A stretch of DNA of 64,000 nucleotides from Sanghuangporus weigelae (taxonomy: Eukaryota; Basidiomycota; Agaricomycetes; Hymenochaetales; Hymenochaetaceae). Positions 1 through 42,706 of the stretch are shown one piece after another. The notes under the pieces were generated by a model that searched no databases, was not told the DNA's origin, and saw only the letters and a list, made by a program, of their open reading frames with translations. Both the position numbers and the translations under genes were made by a program. The DNA lies in the NCBI GenBank assembly GCA_033182465.1, contig CP137325.1, positions 1,364,001 through 1,428,000 on the forward strand, in the 5' to 3' direction. Numbering within the stretch: the stretch's first letter is position 1; every line of letters starts with the position of its first letter.

Positions 1-3000
1 AGACCTGACGCTGCTCTTGAACATGCTCCTCCCACACGGAGACAAAAATGCCCACCATCAAGACTGCAATTAACAAAAACATCCATCGCTGAAATGATCG
101 ACATTTCGGAAGTGATGGAGTCGGGCTCTGATGCTTCCGTACCTCAAGAAGCTTAGCAACGGCCTCGCGCTGTGCAAGGCAGATCGCACGGATTATAAAA
201 GAGAAGATCGTCTGGGATGGTTCGGGTGATCATATCTGCAATACTTATATCAAATCCCTGGCTCTGACCGTCCTTCATTCCGCGCTTTTTGTCCGTCTCA
301 GGCTAAACTGTGGTTCTTGGATGCACATGAACTTTCTACGGCTCTGGCGTCGAACTCTCTATTCTTTGTCGGTCCTGCATAACGAATTATTATTAACCTT
401 GCTATCGTGGTGGACTAAGCATGTAACCTTATGTAAATATGTTTCTGTACAAGCATCTTCCCACATGAGTCCAAGCATAGCATTCTGGATTTGTCTGGAT
501 GTGACTGCTCGATATACTGATACAACAGACAACAAGAAGGAATTCGCGAAGAATTCAAGATCGGAAAAAAATCATGTGCGTAGCAGACCTAGAGTAGTCT
601 GAATCGAGTTAACCCTCAACAACCTCAATCAAGAGGCGATCTCTGGGCATCGCAAATTGAGCTGAAGGGCAAAATGTCCTATCAGCAGTCTACACATCTT
701 CCTGAGTCACCGGTTCGTCCAATCAGAAGATTCCATCCCGCTACACAACAATAAATGAATCGGTAAATCGCAGTCTATTACGAGGGCACGACAGACAAGA
801 ATTGACCAATGATAGTGCGTGCATAGACACCCGATTCAGCGTCGATACACATAAATGCAACCTCATTGGAGCTCTCTATCTGCACGTACACCCAGACTGT
901 GATCATTGCTGCTCGTGAAATGAGGCCCCCAACCAGGGCTGGATGCAGAAACACATCCAAAGCCCCTCCTCAGCATGCCATCGAAATGACACACCGCCCA
1001 CCCTCGATCAAAGGGAAACGGATTTAAGGACGACCGCGCGACTCACAGAAAACAGACCACATCAGAAGACAATCCACCCAACCCCCACTACGCATTCCAA
1101 AGCAGCTCCTCACTTTCCTCTCCCTAGATAATCAGGGGTCTCAGGAAATATCTGACACGAGTTATTCACCCGTGAGACAGCGACTGTTTGGCTTTATGGT
1201 ACGTAGTTCGAACGTTGTCGTTCGGACTCGTCTAGAGTCGATCGAGGGGGATTGGAATACTCAGACCTTGACCCTCTCGCGATGAATGAAGATGAATGCA
1301 ATCATCTTGTCTGTGGCGAGCTTTGCGATCTTGGGTCTGCTACGTGTGTGTTCATTGGACATTGGAAAGATGTTGGCGAGATAAAGTTCAGGTACTTACG
1401 GTTTTTGGAACTCCGCTCTTGGAAAGTGATCTGCATTCACTCGACCTGAGCTATCTGTGTTGCATTCGGGCTGTCCAAGAGTCAACGACGCAATTTTATT
1501 CTCGTAGTGTAGGATTAGATCTCGAATGCATGCCAAAGACCAATGACGTGGTTAATGCTCATAGCGAAGGCTACTGTATAATCATTGCCTACGAGTAACT
1601 ATCTAAACTCAAGCATATACACACATGGTGCATTGTATTTGTCAGGTCAACATACTGATTATCATCAAGGAAGGAGCTCGCGAAGAGTTCATTGATGGAA
1701 AAATTTGTGTACGTAGCAGACCTAGAGTAGTCTGAGTTGAGTTAGCCCCGGTAGCCTCAATCAAGAGGCAATCTTTGGGGATCGCAAATCGAACTGAAGG
1801 GCGAATAGTCCTATCAACAGTCTAGACGTCTTCCTGAATCGCCGCTTCGTCCAATCCGAAGACACCCAAACTGTTACACACAAGTGATTGTCGCGAAAAA
1901 ATCGATCACGGCAATGCTGGTTTGCTGTGGAAGAATCAACTTGTCATTCATACCAACCACTTTTCAGCAGAAGACATGACGCAATTGCGTTGGCCTCCCA
2001 CAACATGCAACAACCGTTAGCGATCATCTGTTCGGCAAGCTTGCTGCTTGGCAGAATGGGGCCCCGGACCAGGGCTTGATGCAAAAACACATTCACCCTC
2101 TCACAAACACACCGCCCACCCTCGGCCAAAAGGGAAACAGGCTCTGGACGACCGTGCAACTCACAGAAAACAGACTGCATCAAAAGACAATCCACCCAAT
2201 CCCCACTACGCATTCCAAAACAGCCCATAGCCTTCCTCTCCCCAGACAACCAGGGGTCTCAGGAAATGTCTGACACGAGTTATTCACCCATGAGACAGCG
2301 ACTGTTTGGCTTTCTGGTACGTAGCTCGAACGTTGATGTTCGGACTCATCTAGAGTCGATCGAGGGGGATTGAAATACTCAGACCTTGACCCGCTCGCGA
2401 TGAATTAAGATGAGCATTGTCATCTTGTCTGTGGCGAGCATTGCGATCTTAGGTCTGCTACGTCGGTGTTCGTTGGTTGGAAAGACGTCGGCGAGAAAAG
2501 TTCAGGTACTTACGCGTTTTGGAACTCCGCTTCCGGAGAGTGATCTGCGTACACTCTAATAGATAATAGATAATCCGACCTACGATCTGTCTTACTTTTC
2601 GTAAGTCAACCAAGAACTTTCTCCGTGTGCGAGCCAAAGACCAATGATGACGATTCCCTGCGGAATCGTTAAGTAGGTTATTGCATAATCACTCCTCACA
2701 TTTGTCAAATGTAAGTTCATCTCCATTCAGGAATACAGGTAAATGAAGTTTGCTACGGCGACGAAATGTCCTTCATAATGAGCCTTTTTCATTATATTAT
2801 CTACCGCCTTCACCAGTGGATACACGGGAAATCCTATCCGAGTGAGGAACGGGAAGTTGATTCTACAGCACTGTCAGCAGGAAGGCAACTGGTCCTAGAC
2901 CCAAGTCCGATGTGGGCAATAGGAGCCCTTTAAAGAGCGGCAAGAGAAAGCAAGAACTGATGCGACTCTTGAACCTGCTCTTCCAATACTATACGAGACA

Positions 3001-6000
3001 AAAAACGCCCATCACCAAGACTCCAATTAAGAAATACATCCATCGCTGAAGAGATCGACATTTCGAAAATGATGAAGTTGGGCTCTGGCGTCGAACTCTC
3101 TATTCTTTGTCGTTCCTGCATAACCAATTATTATAACCTTGCTGTCATGGTAGACTAAGCATGAAACCTTATGTAAATATGTTCCATCAATTGCTGTACA
3201 AGCATCTTCCCACATGACCCCATGCATAGCATTCTATTCTGGATGCGACTGCTTGATATACTGATACCAGACAACAAGAAGGAATTCGCGAAGAATTCAA
3301 GATTGGAAAAATTTGCGTACGTAGCAGACCTAGAGTAGTCTGAATCGAGTTAACCCTTAACAACCTCAATCAAGAGGCGATCTCGGGATATCGCAAATTG
3401 AGCTGAAGGGTGAGATGTCCTATCAGCCGTCTACACATCGTCCTGAGTCACCGGTTCGTCCAATCAAGAAGCTCCATCCCACTGCACAACAATCTATGGA
3501 ATCGGTAAATCGCAGCCCTTCACGAGGGTACGAGAGACAAGAATGGCCAAATTTTAAGTACAATGTGTACATACACACCCGATTCACGTTGATGTACAAA
3601 AATGCACCCTTTGGCCTGAGCTCTCCGTCCACGTACTCCCAGACTGTGATCATTGCTGCTCGTAGAATGAGGCCCCTGATCAGGGCCTGACGCAGAAACA
3701 CATCCGAAGCCCCTCCTCGGCATGCCATCGAAATGACACACCGCCCACCCTCGATCAAAGGGAAACGGGTTTAAGGACAACCGTGCAACTCACAGAAAAC
3801 AGACCACATCAAAAGACAATACACCCAATCCCCACTACGCATTCCAAAGCAGTTCATCATTTTCCTCTCCCTAGATAACCAGGGGTCTCAGGAAATGTCT
3901 GACACGAGTTATTCGCCCGCGAGACAGCGACCGATTGGCTTTCTGGTACGTAGCTCGAACGTTGATGTTCGGACTCATCTAGAGTCGATCGAGGGGGATT
4001 GGAATACTCAGACCTTGACCCGCTCGCGATGAATGAAGATGAGCATTGTCATCTTGTCTGTGGCGAGCATTGCGATCTTAGGTCTGCTACGTTGGTGTTC
4101 GTTGGAAAGACGTTGGCGAAAAAAGTTCAGGTACTTACGGTTTTTGGAACTCCGCTCCAAGAAAGTGATTTGCATTCTCTCCAAAAATTTGACTTGCGAT
4201 TTCCTACTTTCTGTGTTGCATTCAGGCTGTTCAAGATTCAACGACGCATTAATTCCACGAATGTTGATTGTGAGGAATGGATTTAGATCTCGGGCGCATA
4301 CCAAAAACAAAAAGACCCGAATAATGCTCATAATGAAGGTTATTGTATCATGATTATTCTCATCTAAACGCAAGCATATATAAATATACAGGCGCATTGT
4401 ATTTGTCTGGACACAAATTGTTCGATCAATCAACATACTGATACATCAAAAAGAAAGGAACTCGCGAAGAGTTCGTCGATGGAAAAAATTGTGTACGTAG
4501 CAGACCTAGAGTAGTCTGAATTGAGTTAACCCTCAACAACCTCAATCAAGAGGCAGTCTCCAGGCATCACAAATTGAGCTGAAGGGCGGAAATTCCTGTC
4601 AGCAGTCGCTGCATCTTCCTGAATCGCCAGCTCGTCCAATCAAAAGCCGCCATCCCACTGCACAACAATCAAACAATCGATCGAATGTAGCCAGTAATGC
4701 GAGTATGAGGGAGCAAGATAAACTAGGTTTTGGATGACACCTCAGTTCGGTACACATACGATCGATTGGGAGTATATATGTACCAGGTGCATCCCTGCCT
4801 AGCCTGACGATATCTCTTGTCTTCAATACCCACTGGCTACACCATTGCTGCTTGTAGAACGAGACCCCGAACCGGGGCTGGATGCAGAAACACATCCGAA
4901 GCCCCTCCTCAGCATGTCATCGAAATGACACACCGCCCACCCTCGATCAAAGGGAAACGGGTTTAAGGACGACCGCGCGACTCACAGAAAACAGACTGCA
5001 TCAAAAAAAAATCCACCCAATCCCCACTACGCATTCCAAAACAGCTCTTCACCTTCCTCTCCCTAGAATAACCAGGGGTCTCAGGAAATGTCTGACACGA
5101 GTTATTCGCCCGTGAGACAGCGACTGTTTGGCTTTCTGGTACGTAGCTCGAACGTTGATGTTCGGACTCATCTAGAGTCGATCGAGGGGGATTGAAATAC
5201 TCAGACCTTGACCCGCTCGCGATGAATTAAGATGAGCATTGTCATCTTGTCTGTGGCGAGCATTGCGATCTTGGGTCTGCTACGTCGGTGTTCGTTGGAA
5301 AGATGTTACAAGCGAGATAAAGTTCAGGTACTTGCTACCTTTTGAACTCCGCTTTTGGAAAGTAATCTGCGTTCACTCAAACATTCGATTTGAGGTTTGT
5401 TTGCCTTATTTTCTGTATTGAGGTCGGGCTGTCAACGACGCGATTAAATCAATACTCTGATACATCAACAGGAAAGGAACTCGCGAAGAGTTCATCGACG
5501 GAAAAAATTATGTACGCAGCAGACCTAGAGCAGTCTGAATTGAGTTAGCCCCGGTAGCCTCAATCAAGAGGCAATCTTTGGGCATCGCAAATTGAACTGA
5601 AGGGCGAATAGTCCTATCAGCAGTCTACACGTCTTGCTGAATCTCCGGTTCGTCCAATCCAACGACACCCAGCCTGTTACACATCAAGGGATTGACGCGA
5701 AATGACCGATTACGGCAGTGCCTATCGGCTATGTAGGTCCCAACTTGTCATTCATATCAGCCACTTATCAGCTGAAGACATGATGCAATTGCGTTGGCTC
5801 TCCATAACAAAGCACAAACCGTTAACGATCATCTGTTCGGCAAGCCTGCTGCTTGGCAGAATGGGGCCCCGGACCAGGGCTTGATGCAAAAACACATTCA
5901 CCCTTTCACAAACATATTGCCCACCCTCGGCCAAAAGGGAAACAGGCTCTGGACGACCGTGCAACTCACAGAAAACAGACCACATCAAAAGACAATACAC

Positions 6001-7655
6001 CCAATCCCCACGACGCATTCCAAAACAGCTCATCACCTTCCTCTCCCTAGATAACCAGGGGTCTCAGGAAATGTCCAACACGCGTTATTCACCCATGAGA
6101 CAGCGACTGTTTGGCTTTCTGGTACGTAGCTCGAACGTTGTTGTTCGGACTCATCTAGAGTCGATCGAGGGGGATTGGAATACTCAGACCTTGACCCGCT
6201 CGCGAGGAATGAAGATGAACGTAGTCATCTTGTCTGTGGCGAGCATTGCAATCTTAGGTCTGCTATGTTGGTGTTGGAAAGATGCTGGATAGATAAAAAA
6301 AGGTTCGCCACTTGCAAATTTTCGAACTCCGCTTCTAGAAAGTGATTTGCGTCCGCTCTTAAAATTTGACTTGCGATTTCCTGCTTTCTGTGTTGCCTTC
6401 TTCAGTTCAGTGTATCAGCGACGCCTTTATTCCCGTGAGTGTTGATTGCGAGGATTAGATCTCGAATGCGTGCCAAAGACCAAAGACCTGATTAATGCTC
6501 ATAGTGGATAATCACTTCATACGAATAACTATCTAAACTCAAGCATATATGTATAGATACACACGGCGCATTGTATTTCAACATACTGATACAACGAGAA
6601 ATCATCAAGGAAGGAACTCGCGAAGAGTTCATCGACGGAAAAAATTGTGTACGCAGCAGACCTAGAGTAGTCTGAATTGAGTTAGCCCTCGTAACCTCAA
6701 TCAAGAGACGATCTTCGGGCATCGCAAATTGAACTGAAGGGCGAAATGTCCTCTCCGCAGTCTACACGTCTTCCTAAATCGCCGGCCTCTTCAATCCAGG
6801 GATACCACCCCACTAAATGACTGAGCGGGCTCACTGTACCTATTGGGAGTACATCTGAAATGGCCAAAGGCATACAAAACGAAGTTGCGCCATCAAAAAT
6901 GTCCGATCGGTTCAAAGCAAGCTTCACTGCTCTGTATAGTCTAACCATAACGTATTCCCAGTCACAGCGAACGAAATCCGCCGGCACCGTAGAATGGGCC
7001 CGAACCAGGGTATAAAACCAAATCGCATACACCCTTCTTCAGCATGGCATCGAAATGCCACACCGCCCACCCTCGATCAAAGGGAAACAGGTTTAAGGAC
7101 GACCGCGCGACTCACAGAAAACAGACTGCATCAAAAGACAATCCACCCAATCCCCACTACGCATTCCAAAACAGCTCTTCACCTTCCTCTCCCTAGAAAA
7201 CCAGGGGTCTCAGGAATTGTCTGACACGAGTTATTCACCCGTGAGATAGTGACTGTTTGGCTTTCTGGTACGTAGTTCGAACGTTGATGTTCGGACTCAT
7301 CTAGAGTCAATCGAGGGGGATTGGAATACTCAGACCTTGACCCGCTCGCGAGGAATGAAGATGAACGTAGTCATCTTGTCTGTGGCGAGCATTGCGATCT
7401 TGGATCTGCTACGTGGGTGTCGGTTGGAAACATGATGTGGTGGAAGCCAAGAGGGGGAATTTACCGTCTTTGGAACTCCGCTTCTGGGAAGTGATCTGCG
7501 TCCGGTACTTTCAACCTTACAGTAGTGTAATACTGCATTTGGATCGCTTGATAGGCAACCAGGAATTTATTACTGTTGCTATTCATTGCTAAGAACAGTT
7601 CTTGAGTGCAAGAATGAACTGAGAAACGCTCATAGAGAAAATATCACATATACAC
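1..7655 (+). repeat. Tandem array of six long non-coding repeat units
   Basis: Six head-to-tail copies share the same ordered landmarks: a hairpin GAACTC-GCGAA-GAGTTC, then a block containing gcagacctagagtagtctga, a ctgaagggcg block, a block with ccaccctcgatcaaaggg, a block starting ctggtacgtag, and a block gtctgtggcgagcattgc. Counting from the hairpin, units start at 540, 1674, 3282, 4458, 5477 and 6614; spacing is 1134, 1608, 1176, 1019 and 1137 bp. The ctggtacgtag block lies at about 1197, 2317, 3944, 5137, 6119 and 7266, always about 0.6 kb after the gcagacc block, so length variation is in the rest of the unit. Bases 1-539 are the tail of a preceding unit and resemble 2950-3281. Short open frames recur in the units on both strands but break differently in each copy, so I read the repeat as non-coding. 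Family unknown; a subtelomeric or satellite repeat, or a tandemly amplified non-autonomous element, are all possible. Confidence 0.9.
540..6630 (+). other. Conserved hairpin 1 in each array unit (six copies)
   Basis: Each unit contains a 6-bp inverted repeat around a GCGAA loop: 540-556, 1674-1690, 3282-3298, 4458-4474, 5477-5493 and 6614-6630. Copies 1 and 3 read GAATTC/GAATTC, copies 4, 5 and 6 read GAACTC/GAGTTC, and copy 2 reads GAGCTC/GAGTTC, which keeps pairing through a G-U. The sequence changes but the pairing stays, which suggests selection on structure or descent from a structured element. The loop begins GCGA, a GNRA-type tetraloop. Function unknown. Confidence 0.7.
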
Positions 7656-33139: not shown

Positions 33140-34606
33140 AGGGTTGTTTGTCCTAGGGGTTCCCATTGAATGCATTTATTTTTCTGCACCTAGAGGGTAG
33201 TACTAGAGAGTATGCACTGAATTCTCGAGATTCACTCCTTCAGTAGGTATGCGGCAGCGAAAAAAGATCTCTGTATGTATGTTTTATACCTTTTGATATG
33301 CGCCAATGCACAGGAAATTTTCCAATGCTAAGTACATGCACTGGATCAAGTGGGAATAGCAGGGCGCCGCTCCAAGGTATGACAGGGCTTTAGTCGCTGA
33401 TGACAACACTCTTAGCTGCTGCTACGCTTCCTGCTTGATAGAGGCATTGAGGGTAAGTAAGAGAGCCGGACAAACTGGGTGGGATTAATGTCAGTGTCCG
33501 AAGTCTTCGCATTTAAGAATATATCTGTATGATCAAACAGTTTGAAAATTCGGAAAGACGGCGAGTTCCAGATTGATTCAACCGAGTCTTCTCTTCTCTG
33601 ATATAATGAAAGAGGCCATTTGAGGATCCCCACACGCATGAGTCGTCTACCCACAACACAACGTAATCTAGAAATGTGCATAAGCTCTCAGGGGATTCGT
33701 TGCGCTGGCTTTGGATGCACTCACTGATTCGCGATACTATCATTCACTCATTCTTCCAGGTTCAGAAGAATATATGGGTCACTGGATGGGGCTTCCACAG
33801 AGATTGTATAAGCTGGCTTAGTACGACATTGAAGCATGGCAAAGTCCGAGACTGCATGCTATGACGACGTGTATAATGGCATCGACTGAAAAATTGGGAT
33901 CGCAAGACTTGAATCTCCGGGTCTCAGAGGCGTCTGAGCTCTGAAAGCGATCCGACAAAGGAAATAATGGTTTCTATTTATAGACGGCATTGCCTCGGCA
34001 AAAAGAAGAGCGCTCGAGCATTTCAAATCAACTTTTCCAGGCCAGCAAACCACGCGGGAACTGGAAAACAAGATCAGCACGAATAATAAACCGTTCCGAA
34101 TACCCAAACTCCTAGGACAAGCCATGGACCGGAAGCAAGGAGTCAGGGTATAAATCAGAAAGTCCAAAGCTCGGGAAAAGCAGTGATAAACGAGTTTCTT
34201 CGATAAAGAGGTACGATTTGATACTGATGCTTCACTGTCCGTTGAGAGAGAAAGGCGCCGCAACAAAGTGCCTCAACTTCGCAAGCCGCGAGCGCTGATG
34301 GTACTGATGTTGAATTGAGTCGACAATCCCTGTCACCAAGAGGACTGATTGTTCTGATCGCCCACGAAAAGACAAGACGACAGAAAATTTGACTGTGTAT
34401 TCGAGCCAACAGTGTCATTCACACTAGAATCCTTAGATCTGATCTGCAAAACCACGATCGGTTTCAAGAGTAACGTGACTTTGAACATGCACCGTATGCT
34501 TTCAGTTCAGTTACTTACAACAACCAACAACTTGAATAAGAGATCATCGTCCAGAGCGACAGGTACGATACAATGCTCTCGTCGAATTTACCTAATTTTT
34601 AGTAGT
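33140..34606. other. No recognisable gene
   Basis: Frames at 33412-33743 (-) and 33859-34266 (-) are open for 75-135 codons but show no family motif. The 195 bases before 34607 stay open in the COG7 frame (from 34412), but this stretch lacks conserved character. Confidence 0.45.
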
Positions 34607-37444
34607 ATGCAGGATAAAGACTCTCGCCAGGATGCCACCACCGATGTTCTTCGCTCTCTTGAAGACTATTCAGACGTCGCGTCATGGATCAACGATGTTC
34701 TCGACGATGACCTGGGCAATGCGGATGTTCAAGACCTCACCGAACTAGATAAACGCGTATCGCATCTTTCTGCAATACTCGAAGTTGCTTGCGAGGATAC
34801 ATCAGTACAGCTGGAGAAAACGATTGACGACGTTTCGCGAACGGTCCCTCGACTCACGTACGACCTACAACTCATGCAGGAAATCGCGTCATCTCTGCAG
34901 AACTCGTTGCAGGCGGTGGAGCGGCATTCGCAATCATTCTTGAATACTTCCGAAATGGGACCGGTCCTTGACGAGTTGCATTATCTCGATACCGTCAAGC
35001 GCAATATGGAAGCATCGCTGGTCGTGTTGCGAGAGGCGGAGGCTTGGTCGAGCTTGGAATCTGAGGTCATTTCCTACCTTTCGGAGCAGGCGTACTCAAA
35101 AGCCGCAGCAAGACTTTCGGAGGCATCCAAATCTTTGAATGTTTTCGAAAATACGCCCGAATACGAGACGCGCAAAACCTTGATGATCAACCTTCAGAAC
35201 CAACTCGAGGCTGCGCTCAGCTCTGCTCTCGTCGCTGGTATCAATAACAATGATGTGGATGCATGCAAAAAGTATTTCGAGATCTTCTGCAATATCGAGC
35301 GGGAAGCGGAGTTTAGGAGCTATTGGAACGGAAGTAAGCGTAAGAGGATCGTCGCACGATGGCAGGAGGCGAAGCCGCGGGATTGCGATGAGTCGAATCA
35401 GGATGGCAAAAAGTTCTCGATATTTCTGAACGAGTTTTACCAGGAGCTTCTTTCAGTCCTACAGGTCGAGCGCCTATCTGCCATTTTGATATTTCCGGAT
35501 CCCCAGCCAACTTTATCCACCTTCATTACCAGCACGTTCTCATCGTTGCATCCCTCGTTGTCCCAGCGGTTGAACGTGCTTGCGAATTTCTATGTCGATC
35601 TCGCTCTTCCTGAACTCATATCATCATTTAAAGCAACTGAGGAGTTTGCGGTGGCGACAGACAAGATCATGGAGAAAGTTGGATACTCTTCCTTGTCTCC
35701 TGCCATTATTCCGAAAAGCCTCGAGGACCGCGAGAACACGACCTCTGCACCTCGTTCGCACACTCGTCGTCGCTCCACGCGGCAATCTTTCTCAAGGCGA
35801 TTGAATCGATCATCTATTTCTGGGCCACCCGCGTCTTACGAGGTCGCTACTGGCTCAGCCACCCTCGATCACAGCTGGGAAGAGTCCCTTTTCGAGCCCT
35901 TCTTGGATTATCAATGCGACTACGTTACTCTCGAAAAACGCCTACTACGGGCTCAGCTTAAAGATTTGTTGGTACCTGCTTCCTCAGTCCAGGCCGGCGC
36001 TCGATTACTACGTGAGCGAGCCATTGACGTTGTGTCTTTTGCAGATGAGGCTCTGGCGAGATGTATGGCGTTCACCCATGGATATGGTGTCCTTGGACTT
36101 ATCGAAGCTATTGACGATCTTTTCGAAAGCTTCTTGAAATCTGCGCGCCGAGAGATTTTAGAAGCCTCTGGTACACAATGTACGGACGTAGCTTCCATCG
36201 AATCCGGAGAAGAGTTCGCGGATCTGGATTATTCACCATCTGATCTAAACACGTTCCAGCTCGCGTTGCATTTACTGGAAGCTGCACGCGGCGTTTTGGA
36301 GAGGCTCTCTGTGTTCGAATCGAAGCTACGGGGGAGTATCGTACAAACATCCAACGCGCTCAGAATGGTGCGGAGTGATCCGTTTGGGATGTACGTATCA
36401 GGGACGACACGTACTGCGCTCAATTTACTACAGTCGTCTGCTCTGAATAGTGTAGACCTGCAAAATTTACTGGATGCTGTTGATCCAGAACAGCAGCAGC
36501 AACATCCGCAAGTTCCGCATAGTGCTGTGTTCACACCGAGTTCTGCTACATTTGCGGCACAGAAGATGCCCGGATTACCGCATCAACGATCCGCTTTGCT
36601 GCTTGGAGCTCGAGCCGCTGTATCAGAGTTCGCGAAAGCTTGCCAAATGAAATTACAAGAGACTATACTTGCACCCTTGCTCAAGCATCTGTCGACGTAC
36701 CCTTCCTCTCCAGTTTGGACATCTACGGATCCTAAGGACCGACGTGGAGCTGGCGCTAGTAGTGCAGCTGCAGGCGGTGCTGTGAGCGAAGTTAACATCC
36801 CGACATTCTCGTTATCCCCTAGCGCGACTATCCAGCGCGTCACCGATGGACTCCTAAGCCTTCCTCGGCTATTTGAGGTATACGCAGACGATGACGCTCT
36901 TGCGTTCTCTATCGAGACGCTCCCTTATGTCGACGCTGAGAGGTTGCTTGCTGTCACTAATGAGCTTGCGGCCAGTTCAGCAGCGGAAGGCGATTCACCT
37001 GAAGCTACCGCGACGCGCCCTAAATCACGGCACTTTCCATCTTCCACATCTTCACTCACCATCCAAGTTCCCTCACATTCTTTCGCACACCAAAATTTAA
37101 CAATGATCCTTACACCAGAAGCAATAATCTCTCTCTGGCTTACTTCTCTTGCACTTTCTTTGTACAACCACCTCACCTCTGTCGTACTCCCCTCCGTTCC
37201 CCGTCTTTCTTCGCGGGGAAGCGCACAATTAGCGGAGGATCTGAGCTATTTGATGCAGATTGGTAGGGCACTTGGAGTAGAGCTGGGGCAGCTTGAGGCT
37301 TGGAGAGAAGGTGCTGCTATGGAAGTTGACGAGCTGCGAAGGCGGGCAGTAAACCTAGGTGCGGGTGCCACGGCAAGCGGAGAAGAAAAGGAGAGGGAAG
37401 AGGTCTTGAGAAATATTGCAAGACTCAGAGGCATACTATTCTAG
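34607..37444 (+). CDS. COG7: Conserved oligomeric Golgi complex subunit 7
   Basis: Subunit of the COG tether that retrieves Golgi enzymes within the stack. A single uninterrupted exon of 945 codons. The N-terminal SLEDYSDVASWINDVLDDDL is the family's signature opening (F/Y...W(I/V)N), followed by the helical region DKRVSHLSAILEVACEDTSV and QEIASSLQNSLQAVERH, then AEAWSSLESEVISYLSEQAY. The C-terminal part contains QLAEDLSYLMQIGRALGVEL. Length is near that of other fungal and animal COG7 proteins. I chose ATG 34607 rather than the in-frame ATG 34412 because the extra 65 residues are unlike any COG7 and an acceptor-like tttttagtag precedes 34607. It is unusual in this window in having no intron. 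Confidence 0.85.
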   Translation: MQDKDSRQDATTDVLRSLEDYSDVASWINDVLDDDLGNADVQDLTELDKRVSHLSAILEVACEDTSVQLEKTIDDVSRTVPRLTYDLQLMQEIASSLQNSLQAVERHSQSFLNTSEMGPVLDELHYLDTVKRNMEASLVVLREAEAWSSLESEVISYLSEQAYSKAAARLSEASKSLNVFENTPEYETRKTLMINLQNQLEAALSSALVAGINNNDVDACKKYFEIFCNIEREAEFRSYWNGSKRKRIVARWQEAKPRDCDESNQDGKKFSIFLNEFYQELLSVLQVERLSAILIFPDPQPTLSTFITSTFSSLHPSLSQRLNVLANFYVDLALPELISSFKATEEFAVATDKIMEKVGYSSLSPAIIPKSLEDRENTTSAPRSHTRRRSTRQSFSRRLNRSSISGPPASYEVATGSATLDHSWEESLFEPFLDYQCDYVTLEKRLLRAQLKDLLVPASSVQAGARLLRERAIDVVSFADEALARCMAFTHGYGVLGLIEAIDDLFESFLKSARREILEASGTQCTDVASIESGEEFADLDYSPSDLNTFQLALHLLEAARGVLERLSVFESKLRGSIVQTSNALRMVRSDPFGMYVSGTTRTALNLLQSSALNSVDLQNLLDAVDPEQQQQHPQVPHSAVFTPSSATFAAQKMPGLPHQRSALLLGARAAVSEFAKACQMKLQETILAPLLKHLSTYPSSPVWTSTDPKDRRGAGASSAAAGGAVSEVNIPTFSLSPSATIQRVTDGLLSLPRLFEVYADDDALAFSIETLPYVDAERLLAVTNELAASSAAEGDSPEATATRPKSRHFPSSTSSLTIQVPSHSFAHQNLTMILTPEAIISLWLTSLALSLYNHLTSVVLPSVPRLSSRGSAQLAEDLSYLMQIGRALGVELGQLEAWREGAAMEVDELRRRAVNLGAGATASGEEKEREEVLRNIARLRGILF

Positions 37445-37537
37445 ATGCGGGCTTTGTCAAGCCTGTAGTTCAGCACTTTTTCTATCGCTCATTTGGAAGC
37501 ATCATCTGTTTTGTTTGAAATCCAGCCATGTTAGTTA
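37445..37537. other. COG7 3' flank and left TSD of the MITE
   Basis: Short 3' flank of COG7. The last three bases (37535-37537, TTA) match the three bases following the MITE. Confidence 0.6.
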
Positions 37538-37998
37538 GGGCCTGTTCGGCTGCACGTCAAGTTGAGATAGACCTGCCATATAAAGAAAGTGTGATGTCGC
37601 GGAAGTCATCGGAGATCACACCAAAATCAGGCACTGTTCGGCTGCACAATCTCAAATCATGATTTCGAGTCATGATCTCGCGTCTCCCTGCCAAAATGGA
37701 CCATCCGCTCTTTCTTTCCAGTATCTCTGCCACTCAACACAACACAACCACAAAAAAATAAATTAAAAATTGCAAAAATAATCTATTCATAGGGGCCGAT
37801 TGCCCTGCAGTTGAAATAATTTTTTTACAGGCGTGCAATATAGTGCAATGGGCCCTCAGCAGAAGTGAGGGTTTTGAACCTCAACTCGCGTCACAATTGT
37901 GTTGAGGTGTTGAGAGATTATCAGAAATATTCCCACGATTTGCACACAGAGATAGAGCCAAGTCGAGATCTTGTGATTTCGTGCAGCCGAACAGGCCC
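37538..37998. mobile_element. MITE, Tourist/PIF-Harbinger-like
   Basis: A 461-bp non-coding element bounded by perfect 18-bp inverted repeats, GGGCCTGTTCGGCTGCAC at 37538-37555 and its complement at 37981-37998. It is flanked by TTA on both sides (37535-37537 and 37999-38001). A 3-bp TWA-type duplication and ends starting GGGCCTGTT are typical of Tourist-like MITEs mobilised by PIF/Harbinger transposases. A partial second copy of the left end (ctgttcggctgcac) lies at about 37628-37645, inside the element. No transposase of that class is present in the window. Confidence 0.85.
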
Positions 37999-38725
37999 TT
38001 AGTGGTGCCTGGCACGGCCTAAGTAAATCGCGTAACAGTTTTTTCCCGGGCGGAGTTTGGATTATGCCTTTAAATAGTAACTCGCGTCGATCATCGTGTC
38101 CCACATTTTGAATTGAGTCTCGAAAGTTCACCGTCGCACGGATCTGAGATCCATCCTCCCCAAATCTTGTTCGCTAAACTTTAATGGATCCACAAGCACA
38201 CTGAGACAAAAATTTAAAAAGAAATGAAGAAATGTATGTGGTGAAATGCCGTATATTTTGTTACTAATAATTCTCAATTTTGCTTGTCTTTCTTGTCTCG
38301 TTCTTTCTAACGCATCACACCAGACGGAACAAGATGAACGCATTCTCAGGTCGCTCGATTTTATTCTTCTTTATCATGTGTCTCTCGAGAAGCCAGACAG
38401 TGGGAAGCTTCTCACTTGTATGCTCTGTACTTGGATGATGACCGGCTCTACTGATCTCATCACAATGAGAAAACCGTTCTCTCGGTCTGCACTCTCTCAA
38501 CAAGTCCGCTTCACTATCGGTCTCACTGCTTTCTCTTCTCTTCCTTCGTGCTCTCAGGAAGCTCGCTTCATTTCTCTTGCTTTCCTTCCACCATCATCTC
38601 TGCAATCCATTCAGATGCTCGTCGAAGTGATCCCCCCGCATGTGGCCTCTTTCAAGGCAGACGACGCTAACATTCATCACAACCGCGGTAAACTCACGGA
38701 ATCGAACTCGAGATAAACACGCGCC

Positions 38726-38833: not shown

Positions 38834-41800
38834 CTACAGCGAACAATGTTCCTCGAGAAGGCCTATCAAGACGGCCTTCTTTTCTTCCTTTCTCGGCATC
38901 CTGCTATCAACTGGTACGTTTACATCTGGAAATTCTGCCCTGAATTTGTCCAACTGATCCTTCAATTGTTTAACGTTCATCTTTTCAATAGTTTCGCGGT
39001 CGAGCATCAGATCGACTTGACGAATCCGCGCAGCGCGGTCTGCCTTCTTTTGATTTCGTGCGTCCGTCTTCTGTTCCCTTGCGACTGCCTCCTGTACGCG
39101 TTCCTCTGCAATGGAAGCTCTGAGTTTCCGCTCCGTACCCTCTGCGTCCTCCTTGCGCGCCTGCCTCATCAAGTATAACGCTTGATCTTTGCTGGAAAAA
39201 TTCGATTCTATGAAGGCCTCGGTGTTGTTTTTCCGGTACCTAAACAGTGAGTTGAATAGATTTATTGTACCTCCTGGATTTCTCTTCGAGAAGGCTCGAT
39301 ATGAGCCAAGAGCCCCCTCATTGGCGTCGTTTGTTGCTGGCATCCATGCCAATTCTTTCTCTCCTTCGGTAAGTGCCGCTATTAGTCCATCCTCATTGAA
39401 TTCTGACGAAAATCTCTCCCAGACATCTAAAGCACCAACGAGGAAGGCCCTGAATAGGGCCTCCAACTTTGGAAGCTTTCTTTCGGAAATGAATCTTTGT
39501 ATCGCTTTGATCGTATCAGGGCGGTCCCAGGAATCATTTTCATCGAGAATGACTTCGGAAGGTACAGCGCTCGATGACAGAACAATTTGCGGCTCCCTGA
39601 TGAGCTTTGCTATGTGGGACCTGGTCTGATGTAAACATGCGAGACTCGAGTAAGCACCTATACAATAGATCCTAGCTGAGTATATGCTTACCTTCTTCAA
39701 CAGAGAACCGAGTTCCAGGGCATTCATCTCCTCAAGTGAGTCGCCTCGGATTGCCCTAATGTATGGGACTGAGACGGCCTCGCGGTAGAGAGCGCAACAG
39801 GCAAGCTCAGTACGTGTCGGTGGGTCCAAGAGGCCCCTTTCGACATTTGATTCAAGATGGTTAAGGCCCGGATTTGTTTTGTTGTATCGTATGTATTTCA
39901 CGAACTCGATGTATTCATCCAGGTAAGCAATTATTTCCGCCGCCGCATCAAGATATGAAGAATAACGTGTATTTGATGTATCAGGGAACTTGGTCCTGCG
40001 GTTCATTCTTCTCTGGGCCCAATCTCGAAAGGCATCCTGGTGCCCTAACTCGCAAGACTCGAGTTAGCACCTATACAATAGATCCTAGCTGAGGATAGAC
40101 TGACCCTTCTTCTTATCTTTGTGGCGAAGTAGCGCACCCATTAAATCGCCTAGTTTCTCTGCCCCAGCTTTCGAAACTGCATGGGCACGTTTCTCCGCGG
40201 CACTCTGTTGCCTTGTACCTTCGTTTTCCTCCTCACCTGCCTCCATCTCTCCCAGCTCGATTATGGCCGCATTGTCTTTATTAGCGAGGATTACAGGTGA
40301 GATACCATGTTTTTTCCATTCTTCCTGCATTGCTAAACAGCCTCCTTTCACGGCGTTGAGGTCCTTATGCATCCCACAACCAGCCCAAGCAAAAATTTGG
40401 ACTTCTCGCTTCTCCTCCTCCGAGAGATCAAGGACGGCCCTATCTACAAGATCTTCAGCGATCTCTTGCATCAAAGATTCGTGCTTCTTTCTTCGTTCTT
40501 CTTCACTGATCGTATTCCAGGCTTCCAGTCCCCCCAGCTCACAGATCATCCGGGTAACGTTTTCAAGAACAAGCGTGTATCTTTCGTCCTCTGCCATCGA
40601 GAAGAAGGACCTAGTGCCAAGGCCTCGCATCGTATGTTCCTTCTTCCAAATAGCGAGCAAACGATGCTTCGCTTTTTGGTCCTCTGCGTGGTCTCCATGC
40701 GAGCCATGGTACTTCATGGCCACCGTCCCGAGAGTTAGTGGAGCAGATTTCGACTCTGGAAATCAGGTGAGACTCGAGTTAGCACCTATACAATAGATCC
40801 TAGCGGAGTATAGTCTGACCGTTCTCTGCCAGCGGACTCTCATTCCAAAGCTTGACAATTTCCTCAAGGAACTTGGTGTCGCCTTTCATCTGGGTCTCTG
40901 CGCGATGGTTCGGAGCCATGCGTAGCTCTCCAAAAAGGACGGCACGACGATGCGAAGAATCCGGTGAGTCAGTTGGCAGCTGGACATTCAAATGTAGGGC
41001 CTCGAAATTTTGGCCCATGTTTGTTGTCCCATCACCGCCTGTAGTAAATCCTGGAGAACTGGTAAGAATTTTTTTTTTCGTTGATGGAATCAGGTACTTA
41101 CCTCTTGTTTCTTTCAGATATTTGGCAATTTGTAGTTTCGAAGCTACATTGCCCTCCATTACAATCCTTCGAATGGTTCTTACGCTAGGTACGTGGATCT
41201 TCGCAGCAGAAATACCAACTGATTTGCAAACAAATCGCAGAAATTCCGTAATGACGGCACCAGTTCTGACCAAAGGACAGCCAAGGGAGACGACTCGACG
41301 AACCAATGCACGCACACGAGGTGCGTAGAAGTTTTCCTGCGTAAGTTCGATAATCTTGAATACTTCTTTCTTGAAATTTACGAGTTCCTCGGCCTTCCCT
41401 TTAGATCGATAAATGCGCGCTTGAAGGGCACGACATCTCTTCTGCGATTTGCGAAGTCGAGTGCGTAAGTTCGCCGTTTTGCCTCTATCCACAATTCTTT
41501 CCTTATCAGCTTGCATTCCAAACTTTGCAAGCTTCCCTTCAAGCTTTGCGAGCTTCCCTTCAAGATCGGTACATCGAGATTGCGAGCAGGACAAGTGGAA
41601 ATGAAGATTGCTGAGCAGATGATGTGCATCCGTGATTGTATTACACCTAGTCTCGGCGTCGGATTTTGACTTGGTGAGCTGCATTTCTGTCTCCTGAAAC
41701 AAAGAGGCTAATGCCCCATTTCTCCCCTTCAAGTCGGTGCTGCGGCCCTTCGTTCGTTTCAGCTGCTTGCGTAAGTCACGTAGCTGCTTTAAACGCACGT

Positions 41801-42131
41801 CCAACTGCTTCGATTTGCCTCCAATCTCCTTTTGTAGTGCCAAAACCTGTGACCTGAGTGCTAAATTGTCTGTTTCTAGGCTCTTGATCGATTCTCCTAA
41901 TTTCTTCTTCTCGATTGCGTGTCGAATGGATACCTGCTGAAGCTCAACATATTCTTCTTCTTTCCTTTCCAGCTCTTCGGTAAGTAATTCGACTCTCGAT
42001 GATGTTGATCTGGACTCTCTTTCTTCCACAGATTCAAGTCTTTCGGAATGAATGGCCACCAATCTATGCTCTCGATTCGCCTTCAAGACTAAGGCCTGTG
42101 CCTCCGATCTCTTCTTTCTTCCTGTAGACAT
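38834..42131 (-). CDS. Transposase-like protein, hAT-like RNase H motifs, basidiomycete-expanded family
   Basis: Five exons (42131-41102, 41050-40820, 40755-40105, 40044-39692, 39625-38834) total 3057 nt and read without a stop to 1018 residues. Residues about 20-260 form a long coiled coil. Then come RGFTTGGDGTTNMGQNFE (candidate first Asp), YHGSHGDHAEDQK, FAWAGCGMHKDLNAVKGG, whose CGMHKDLN resembles the CxxH.LN motif of hAT transposases, KFPDTSNTRYSSYLDAAAEI, and ELAWMPATNDANEGALGSYR (candidate catalytic Glu). I recall near-identical uncharacterised proteins in many copies in agaric genomes, which fits a mobile element; this is memory, not a search. The class is unproven; KDZ or another RNase H-fold family are alternatives. 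The frame looks intact. Confidence 0.7.
39626..39691 (-). repeat. Introner-like intron, copy C
   Basis: 66-nt intron, phase 0, between KK and TRSHIAK. It contains the shared core GCTAGGATCTATTGTATAGG followed by TGCTTACTCGAGTCT. It has no stop in frame, so its unspliced reading would add 22 residues absent from relatives as I recall them. Confidence 0.75.
40045..40104 (-). repeat. Introner-like intron, copy B
   Basis: 60-nt intron in the transposase-like gene, phase 1, same core as copies A and C with branch-site-like CTAAC. Using the TTAG acceptor restores KKKGHQDAFRDW, which matches the family reading KKGHxDxFR as I recall it. Confidence 0.75.
40756..40819 (-). repeat. Introner-like intron, copy A
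   Basis: 64-nt intron, phase 1, joining LAEN to ESKSAPLTLGTVAMKYHG. The core is identical to copy B over more than 30 bases, while the outer ends differ. Confidence 0.75.
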
Positions 42132-42706
42132 CCTGTTTTTTTCAAGTAAAATATACTGTAAGCAGTTTATATTTGCATAGAATCTGAATACATACACTGC
42201 ATGTCCCAGATCTCAACGTTAGAATTAATTTTTGTCAGTTTCGACGCAATGCCATCAGGTTTCCGCGTGCCTTCTGTCAGTCACGTGATAAATAATTCCC
42301 TTATATGGATGCATATAGCGTCTCCTGGCCTCATACTTCCAGCTTCCTCAGTCACAACAAAACCTACCGGCCTCAATGGCGGGATCAAAGTTTTTCATGT
42401 ATTTCTTCAATTTGTTCAAAAAAAATTCTCAAGAAATATCTTAGATATCTTTATATGCTCAAAATAATGCTATATCTCAGTATCTACACAATAATTTTCT
42501 GAAAAAAATTCAGATTCATGTTCAGCATATAGGAAAACAATTTTGCAGATTTTTTTAGATTTTTTGTTAAGTTGTGGGAGGCAGGACGGGCCTTCGACTG
42601 TCAAAATGAAAAGTGGGACACATGAGTCTGAGTGTCGATCACTCGGCTGACGCGGAAGGGATCGTCGGAACTACACGGAAATCGGATAGGCCGTGCCAGG
42701 TACCAC

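Follow-up and report, generated by a model that had tools for sequence, protein, structure and literature searches.

How a single gene comes to carry three near-identical introns at unrelated coding positions is the question raised by a 64,000-nucleotide (nt) stretch of the Sanghuangporus weigelae genome (assembly GCA_033182465.1, contig CP137325.1, positions 1,364,001 to 1,428,000; hereafter the window), in which a multicopy, transposase-like gene holds introns A, B and C, which resemble one another, and a fourth intron, D, which does not. The origin of new spliceosomal introns is a long-standing question, and in this case a specific cellular RNA can be named as the donor. What the introns share is the 5′ domain of the U3 small nucleolar RNA (snoRNA), an identity that an earlier note on this DNA, made from the sequence alone, could not see. 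It is likely that truncated U3 copies became spliceosomal introns in a transposon of the terminal inverted repeat (TIR) type and that selection preserves part of them. The sequence itself establishes the likeness to U3, the extent and positions of the copies, their age relative to the exons and their uneven conservation, from which splicing, the RNA route, selection in preference to overwriting and any function are inferred.

The repetition itself is plain. The window contains the core GCTAGGATCTATTGTATAGG exactly three times, always on the minus strand (40785-40804, 40070-40089 and 39657-39676), no fourth copy with up to three mismatches was found in the window, and none of 100 dinucleotide shuffles of the window reached three copies. 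The earlier note was right about the three near-identical segments, the intron coordinates (Table 1), the phases (1, 1 and 0) and the unrelated fourth intron, and it rightly took the three for related insertions with other copies in the genome, as a 33-nt form of the core was found at 11 genome places with up to three mismatches (reversed control, 0). The shared stretch that it described is real, although longer and more widespread than it said: a 21-nt block matched 19 places (control, 0) and a 66-nt composite query gave 17 matches, all these counts being lower bounds.

We infer with good support from the sequence that introns A, B and C are spliced and spliceosomal. Subtraction of A, B, C and D from 42131..38834 leaves a single open frame of 1018 amino acids (aa), for which the removal of A and B is required, and six paralogs without insert C translate uninterrupted across site C. 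With boundaries placed by hand, the U3-like introns start with GT in 13 of the 15 that have a readable 5′ end (C7_A starts with GC and C11_B with AT; introns of paralogs are named by paralog and position), end with AG in 16 of 16 and contain a branch site of the form RCTNAC.

Two loci on C5, whose boxes stand in order and which match the U3 fold, are identified by these features as putative U3 snoRNA genes. They match U3 (RF01847) over model positions 1-221 of 221 (E 2.9e-8 in a 451-nt search) and, of the motifs given in the cited part of PMC5832005, have A′ (TACTC) and D (CTGA) exactly and A (GGATCT) and C′ (TAGATGA) with one letter off. From nt 58 on, U3 is the sole match at E≤1, a weak one (15.6 bits, E 0.028). 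Both loci are uninterrupted over 236 nt and 97% identical to each other over 312 bp, including 72 bp upstream, and TATATAAA ends 29 nt upstream of the first U3 base, nt 1 having been placed by TATA spacing and the U3 model.

A genome search with the 236-nt U3 returned these 2 full loci and at least 15 fragments, all of which begin within U3 nt 1-6 and stop within nt 47-64; no 3′ fragments of U3 were found in this search. In the 16 intron copies that were compared, the match to the U3 gene extends upstream of nt 1 by only 0-2 contiguous bases. The copies are thus built like truncated retro-copies, and since the homology begins at the probable 5′ end of the RNA, without promoter or 3′ domain, a cDNA is a likelier source than a piece of a U3 gene. 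No fragment extends beyond U3 nt 64, so the introns lack the box C/D core and no stable small nucleolar ribonucleoprotein is expected of them.

The first ~64 nt of U3 are nearly an intron already, with the acceptor AG alone missing. Set behind a host GT, the 5′ end AGAC gives the donor sequence GTNAGAC, and the fungal branch-site consensus is matched by nt 34-39 (GCTAAC). This near-intron character gives a testable route by which U3 cDNA in coding sequence could be spliceable at once. Truncated U3 cDNA would have entered the transposon coding sequence at three sites, and another U3 copy would have entered an old intron of a second transposase-like gene family. The likeliest route would be self-primed reverse transcription, in which extension would copy nt 74 to 1; U3 nt 229-235 are predicted to pair with nt 75-81 (probability 0.74-1.0). 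The introns would then have been carried along while the transposon family diverged, with purifying selection keeping nt 5-22 and 38-47, the pre-rRNA-pairing parts, and the remainder drifting. Bernstein, Mount and Weiner reportedly described, in 1983, truncated mammalian U3 pseudogenes that arose from self-primed reverse transcripts. Those pseudogenes likewise reportedly hold only the 5′ end of U3, from nt 1, but they are said to be dead and to end near nt 69-74, whereas the sequences here end at nt 64 or before, have the look of introns in coding genes and are conserved.

Of the 19 places of the 21-nt block, 16 are introns, 2 are the U3 loci and one is a 3-mismatch site on C6; the 17th U3-like intron is the degenerate C10b_C. 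The C6 site (C6:2487198-2487218, minus strand), which matches U3 nt 2-22, was rejected as a further U3 copy, its downstream sequence not being U3-like and the match being probably due to chance. All 17 introns are in sense orientation and 16 of them occupy position A, B or C in the window gene or a paralog; the 15 search fragments comprise 14 at A, B or C of the paralogs and one in the second gene family. A comparison of intron positions among paralogs, which the earlier note had called for, showed the same sites filled in some paralogs and empty in others. A, B and C are all filled in the window gene, C7, C6 and C11 (where intron C is broken by an element of long terminal repeat (LTR) type); C8b has B and C filled (C again broken by an LTR-type element), and C10b has B filled and C degenerate. 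There is no insert at A in C8b, C1a, C1b, C12 and C9, at B in C1a, C1b, C12 and C9, or at C in C1a, C1b, C12, C9, C7c and C1c; the equivalence of site A between paralogs is less exact than that of B and C, as it falls in a poorly aligned loop. At the D site, an insert is found in 8 of 8 family members with coverage. The element inside intron C is the same TG...CA element (TGAAAGGATCC...CTAACA) in C8b and C11 (C8:1744902-1752874 and C11:275428-279900), with differing 5-bp duplications (TATAC and GTATG, respectively), and a reversed copy of it abuts the C8:1134900 paralog near residue 780.

The single copy outside this family is on C10 (C10:1165423), in a second multicopy family with 7 matches, and consists of U3 nt 1-56 with one mismatch. 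Of the other six matches, four (L068-L071) carry an ordinary intron at this same N-G|G-R site and L072 carries one nearby, and the frame of L073, the most distant, continues without an intron (splice sites by eye). From this arrangement, it appears that U3 nt 1-56 replaced the body of an old intron in the C10 gene. The second family is probably of the Plavaka transposase type, judging from a Pfam match of its distant member L073 only (PF18759, E 0.0031, 17.2 bits, below the cut-off of 26.3); the exons of the C10 copy itself gave no Pfam match of note. A 'Tnp2-like' label for this family was dropped, as Pfam supports only the weak Plavaka match. At C10:1163923-1166980, a GC-rich repeat end lies on the upstream side of the U3-like intron; it recurs next to the C9:1674955 paralog and at an insertion within the C6 paralog (residue ~696).

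The introns are far better conserved than the exons around them. Between the window gene and C7, the exons differ by 1.17-1.18 synonymous substitutions per synonymous site (dS) over 1001 codons, and against C6, C8b, C11 and C10b synonymous sites are saturated (proportion of differing sites, pS, 0.75-0.78). Over U3 nt 1-47, the introns of the window gene and C7 differ at only 8 of 141 sites, where 59% would be expected at neutral sites, and window introns are 79-96% identical to those of the saturated paralogs, with the exception of C10b_C (57%). Against U3 itself, 15 of the 16 aligned introns are 83-98% identical over nt 1-47 (C8b_C by its 3′ piece; gaps counted). Intron D, the control, is 50-57% identical between the window gene and C7, C6, C8b or C11, with shuffled means of 47-49% and maxima of 55-60%, and the window-C7 pair alone exceeds every shuffle, barely. 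The earlier note had argued that identity implies recent multiplication, which is not supported, since the same introns occupy the same sites in paralogs with dS of about 1.17 or saturation; as those sites are filled in strongly diverged paralogs, the identity reflects constraint or overwriting, not youth. In maximum-likelihood trees, the intron-free paralogs group together (100), as do C10b and C8b (95 and 97), and C6 and C11 join with support of 95 among long sequences and 54 when short ones are added. The trees are unrooted and the branch that orders the gains has 61-74% support; if rooted on the intron-free clade, they would place B and C before A.

Conservation is also uneven within the introns. 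The site pattern was taken from 14 introns, namely 13 of the family and the C10 copy (the 16 aligned minus C10b_C and C8b_C; C11_C is unaligned). Few differences from U3 fall in nt 5-22 (4/252), nt 35-36 (0/28) and nt 38-47 (3/140). They are commoner in nt 1-4 (6/56) and nt 23-33 (20/154), reach 7/14 at nt 34 (A in place of G every time) and likewise 7/14 at nt 37, and come to 120/238 in nt 48-64, a stretch within which many introns stop. As such, nt 5-22 and 38-47 stay 98% identical to U3 and nt 23-33 and 48-64 drift (nt 5-22 against 23-33, Fisher P 3.6e-6), while nt 34-39 behave like a branch site, RCTNAC. We know of no splice signal that takes in nt 5-22 or 40-47. Fungal U3 pairs with 18S rRNA through the 5′ half of hairpin 1 and with the 5′ external transcribed spacer through the hinge between hairpins 1 and 2, according to the portions cited of PMC5832005, PMC4340053 and PMC9196750. 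The two conserved blocks lie in this half hairpin and hinge (as delimited in PMC5832005), and the introns vary in hairpin 2 and in the remainder of hairpin 1 (nt 23-33). Over a time long enough to saturate synonymous sites and to randomise a neighbouring intron almost fully, two U3 segments within single introns have resisted change, which suggests that a snoRNA fragment has a function inside transposon introns.

Several observations weigh against an origin from U3 followed by selection. Concerning the donor, the C5 loci score 36.5, below the Rfam gathering score of 80 (a plant model), and by eye neither box B nor box C is clear in them; the Rfam model for fungal U3 gave no match anywhere, its 14 controls included, and is uninformative, and Rfam gives no U3 match at 39500-40950, the region of the window introns, at E≤10. 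Intron homology ends at nt 64 or earlier, not at nt 74. Introns C (66 nt) and D (51 nt) hold no in-frame stop, so that the open frame by itself is no proof of their splicing, which rests on splice signals and paralogs. C10b_C has decayed to 27 of 47 sites like U3, and constraint is therefore not universal; intron D is 66% identical between C6 and C11, above all 200 shuffles, which makes the control clean for window comparisons only. All five aligned introns of C6 and C11 share a 1-nt deletion at U3 nt 24, and C11_C, read separately, is also without that base. Since this deletion groups by gene, it is not predicted by plain inheritance of A, B and C, and it shows that the introns of one gene share a history for which we find no account in inheritance alone. 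The U3 piece of the C10 gene, at a site of ordinary introns, indicates that replacement rather than birth can occur. Furthermore, modelled pairing with the 5′ end of 18S rRNA is a weak indication that beats shuffles clearly for some introns only. With a generic 18S end, U3 reaches -20.8 kcal/mol, the introns except C10b_C -14.2 to -21.8 and intron D -8.5 to -14.6 kcal/mol; for the same introns 1-65 of 200 shuffles were as good (2-89 of 200 with the yeast end), and for C10b_C 107 (generic) and 118 (yeast end) of 200. Two 18S patterns had no match in the assembly, where the rDNA is not assembled or is different.

A conserved RNA hairpin as the cause of conservation was considered and set aside: the U3 hairpin has 7 pairs changed on both sides, above the column-shuffle mean of 2.8, but structures slid by -3 and +2 columns are nearly as good (6 doubly changed pairs each), the RNAalifold covariation term is 0.09, and changes at nt 8, 12, 17, 42 and 45 all leave a non-pair by eye. 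What the preserved segments might do is a matter of speculation. A tentative and somewhat unlikely possibility is that the introns are selected mimics of U3. The transposon pre-mRNA or the excised intron would then offer nt 5-22 and the hinge (nt 38-47), the face with which U3 pairs to pre-rRNA, to Imp3/Imp4 or nucleolar pre-rRNA, and would in this way either couple transposase splicing to ribosome production or shield the transcript from RNA interference. In Cryptococcus, RNA interference (SCANR) is triggered by poorly spliced transposon introns, as the cited part of PMC5851062 describes. If shielding were true, small RNAs against the introns would also strike the essential U3 of the host.

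Intron loss by recombination with cDNA is expected to spare the 5′-most intron. It could be proposed that the ancestral introns at A, B and C were of the ordinary kind, that U3 sequence later took the place of their bodies and that the intron-free paralogs lost them through such recombination; the intron-free clade does retain D, the 5′-most intron, and the second family has ordinary introns at the same or a nearby site in the relatives L068-L072. Such replacement is nonetheless unlikely for the window family, as no ordinary intron is present at A, B or C in the paralogs without a U3 insert (4-6 per site), C8b lacks A alone, and the tree is unrooted, with 61-74% support for the relevant branch.

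Overwriting, by which old introns would be reconverted by U3 DNA or cDNA, or by one another within a gene, would give identity without function. Clustering by gene is what it predicts, and this is seen in the nt 24 deletion of the C6 and C11 introns and in nt 34, which is alike in A, B and C of the window gene, in A and B of C7 and in A and B of C11; moreover, the second family holds a U3 piece with one mismatch where its relatives have ordinary introns. Against this stand differences that fall at particular sites, with nt 34 and 37 changed in half the introns beside the invariant nt 35-36, a pattern expected of site constraint and unlike conversion tracts, and the saturation of the flanking exons. 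In addition, nt 37 is A in U3 but T in five of six introns at position C, and the T kept there means that U3 has not overwritten that stretch in those introns. We therefore regard overwriting as a serious but unlikely rival, and selection on nt 5-22 and 38-47 as the better account of their identity.

Parallel gains, with U3 fragments arriving independently at the same three sites, perhaps because these are preferred proto-splice sites (AG|G), are very unlikely. The clustering of the nt 24 deletion by gene and the AGG(T) repeats that surround several copies, for example C6_C and C11_C, would suit them, and for fungal introner-like elements such parallel gain, inside a 15-bp window around other introns, has been published (PMC4457414, in the part cited). 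Up to three coincidences per subfamily would be needed, however, and the letters at nt 37 fit inheritance by position (A in 4 of 4 position-A introns, T in 5 of 6 at C). The AGG(T) repeats, the only candidates for direct repeats flanking the insertions, cannot be told apart from proto-splice-site sequence, since any proto-splice site together with an acceptor AG yields the same pattern. A recent introner burst, with introns copying themselves across the genome, is largely refuted and most improbable: the close likeness of introns at unrelated positions and the copy in the second gene family speak for it, but the same positions are filled in paralogs with saturated synonymous sites, the 17 introns found are confined to two families, and the shared sequence is U3 itself.

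On the favoured reading, the phenomenon is intron gain by an inserted repeated element, a kind already known, with a donor, U3, that is unreported in the literature searched; an earlier report of U3 as an intron donor was not found in the open literature, a body that leaves most subscription papers outside. Like the introns described here, introners are spliceosomal introns that occur almost unchanged at several coding positions, and this in more than one gene family, according to the cited parts of PMC4457414 and PMC9860276. They are present there in hundreds of copies, whereas 17 U3-like introns were found here, in two mobile gene families, and a genome-wide burst is not supported. Introners degenerate fast (PMC4457414, as cited), whereas the U3-like introns are old and conserved. 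Target-site duplications and/or terminal inverted repeats mark introners, with some families lacking them, and many introner families have been traced to non-autonomous DNA transposons (PMC9860276, in the portion used here). In the U3-like introns, unlike introners, the source RNA is identified and no inverted repeats are seen on the intron; this search for inverted ends was an inspection by eye.

Two further relations between U3, snoRNAs and introns can be compared. In the data given in part of PMC5832005, 138 of 310 fungal U3 genes have an intron, in 133 of the 138 within the 5′ half of hairpin 1; there the intron is inside the U3 hairpin, and here the relation is reversed, with the U3 hairpin being the intron. 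The introns of RPL7 and NOG2 are, as described in the cited part of PMC8476143, kept for the snoRNA sequence inside them, as is proposed here, but they hold complete box C/D or H/ACA snoRNAs, whereas only the 5′ domain of U3 is present in the introns here.

The window gene is most likely the gene of a multicopy DNA transposon of the TIR type. It is flanked by a pair of 20-nt inverted repeats (Table 1), the same repeat ends another paralog at C11:38811 with 2 mismatches, and the 33.87-Mb assembly holds relatives at about 20 places (grouped by hand from 52 matched stretches), several of them interrupted by stops or other elements. The target-site duplication of the element is not clear-cut. The terminal repeat was not seen, with up to three mismatches, in the other merged paralog regions, several of which stop before the end of the element. 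The mobile host gene proposed by the earlier note is thus upheld by inverted repeats and paralogs, and the label transposase-like rests on these, since Pfam and PDB recognise no transposase domain in the product: there was no confident match in Pfam (best 16.7 bits, cut-off 31.2) and only weak matches in PDB (best E 0.0047, a design construct).

Table 1. Features of the transposon and its introns, in window coordinates
Feature	Position	Strand	Remarks
Transposon gene (most likely)	38834..42131	-	5 predicted exons, 1018 aa; based on the spliced frame and paralogs genome-wide
Intron A	40756..40819	-	U3 nt 1-56 at 40816-40761, 93%; GT...CAG; branch site GCTAAC
Intron B	40045..40104	-	U3 nt 1-50 at 40101-40052, 94%; GT...TAG; branch site GCTAAC
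Intron C	39626..39691	-	U3 nt 5-59 at 39684-39630, 98%; GT...CAG; branch site GCTTAC
Intron D	41051..41101	-	ordinary, older intron, not U3-derived; control
Left terminal inverted repeat GTGGTGCCTGGCACGGCCTA	38002..38021	+	2-mismatch copy at C11:38811, downstream of a paralog
Right terminal inverted repeat	42687..42706	-	19/20 nt match to left repeat

The surroundings of the transposon include further elements and genes. A short element with perfect 20-nt inverted ends (AGGGCCTGTTCGGCTGCACG) adjoins its left end (window 37537-37999), and a nested element of similar look is present inside an LTR-type insertion on C8. Beside the transposon lies a gene for COG7, a Golgi complex component (window 34412-37444, plus strand; PF10191, E 1.1e-64). 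At the start of the window (~1-7500), an array of six repeats (units 990, 2108, 3737, 4930, 5913 and 7059; spacing ~1-1.6 kb), which are 67-94% identical to a reference copy, is identified by its match to nuclear RNase P RNA as a tandem family of RNase P RNA genes or pseudogenes, the Rfam gathering score being reached at 2156-2458 and 5519-6263 on the minus strand.

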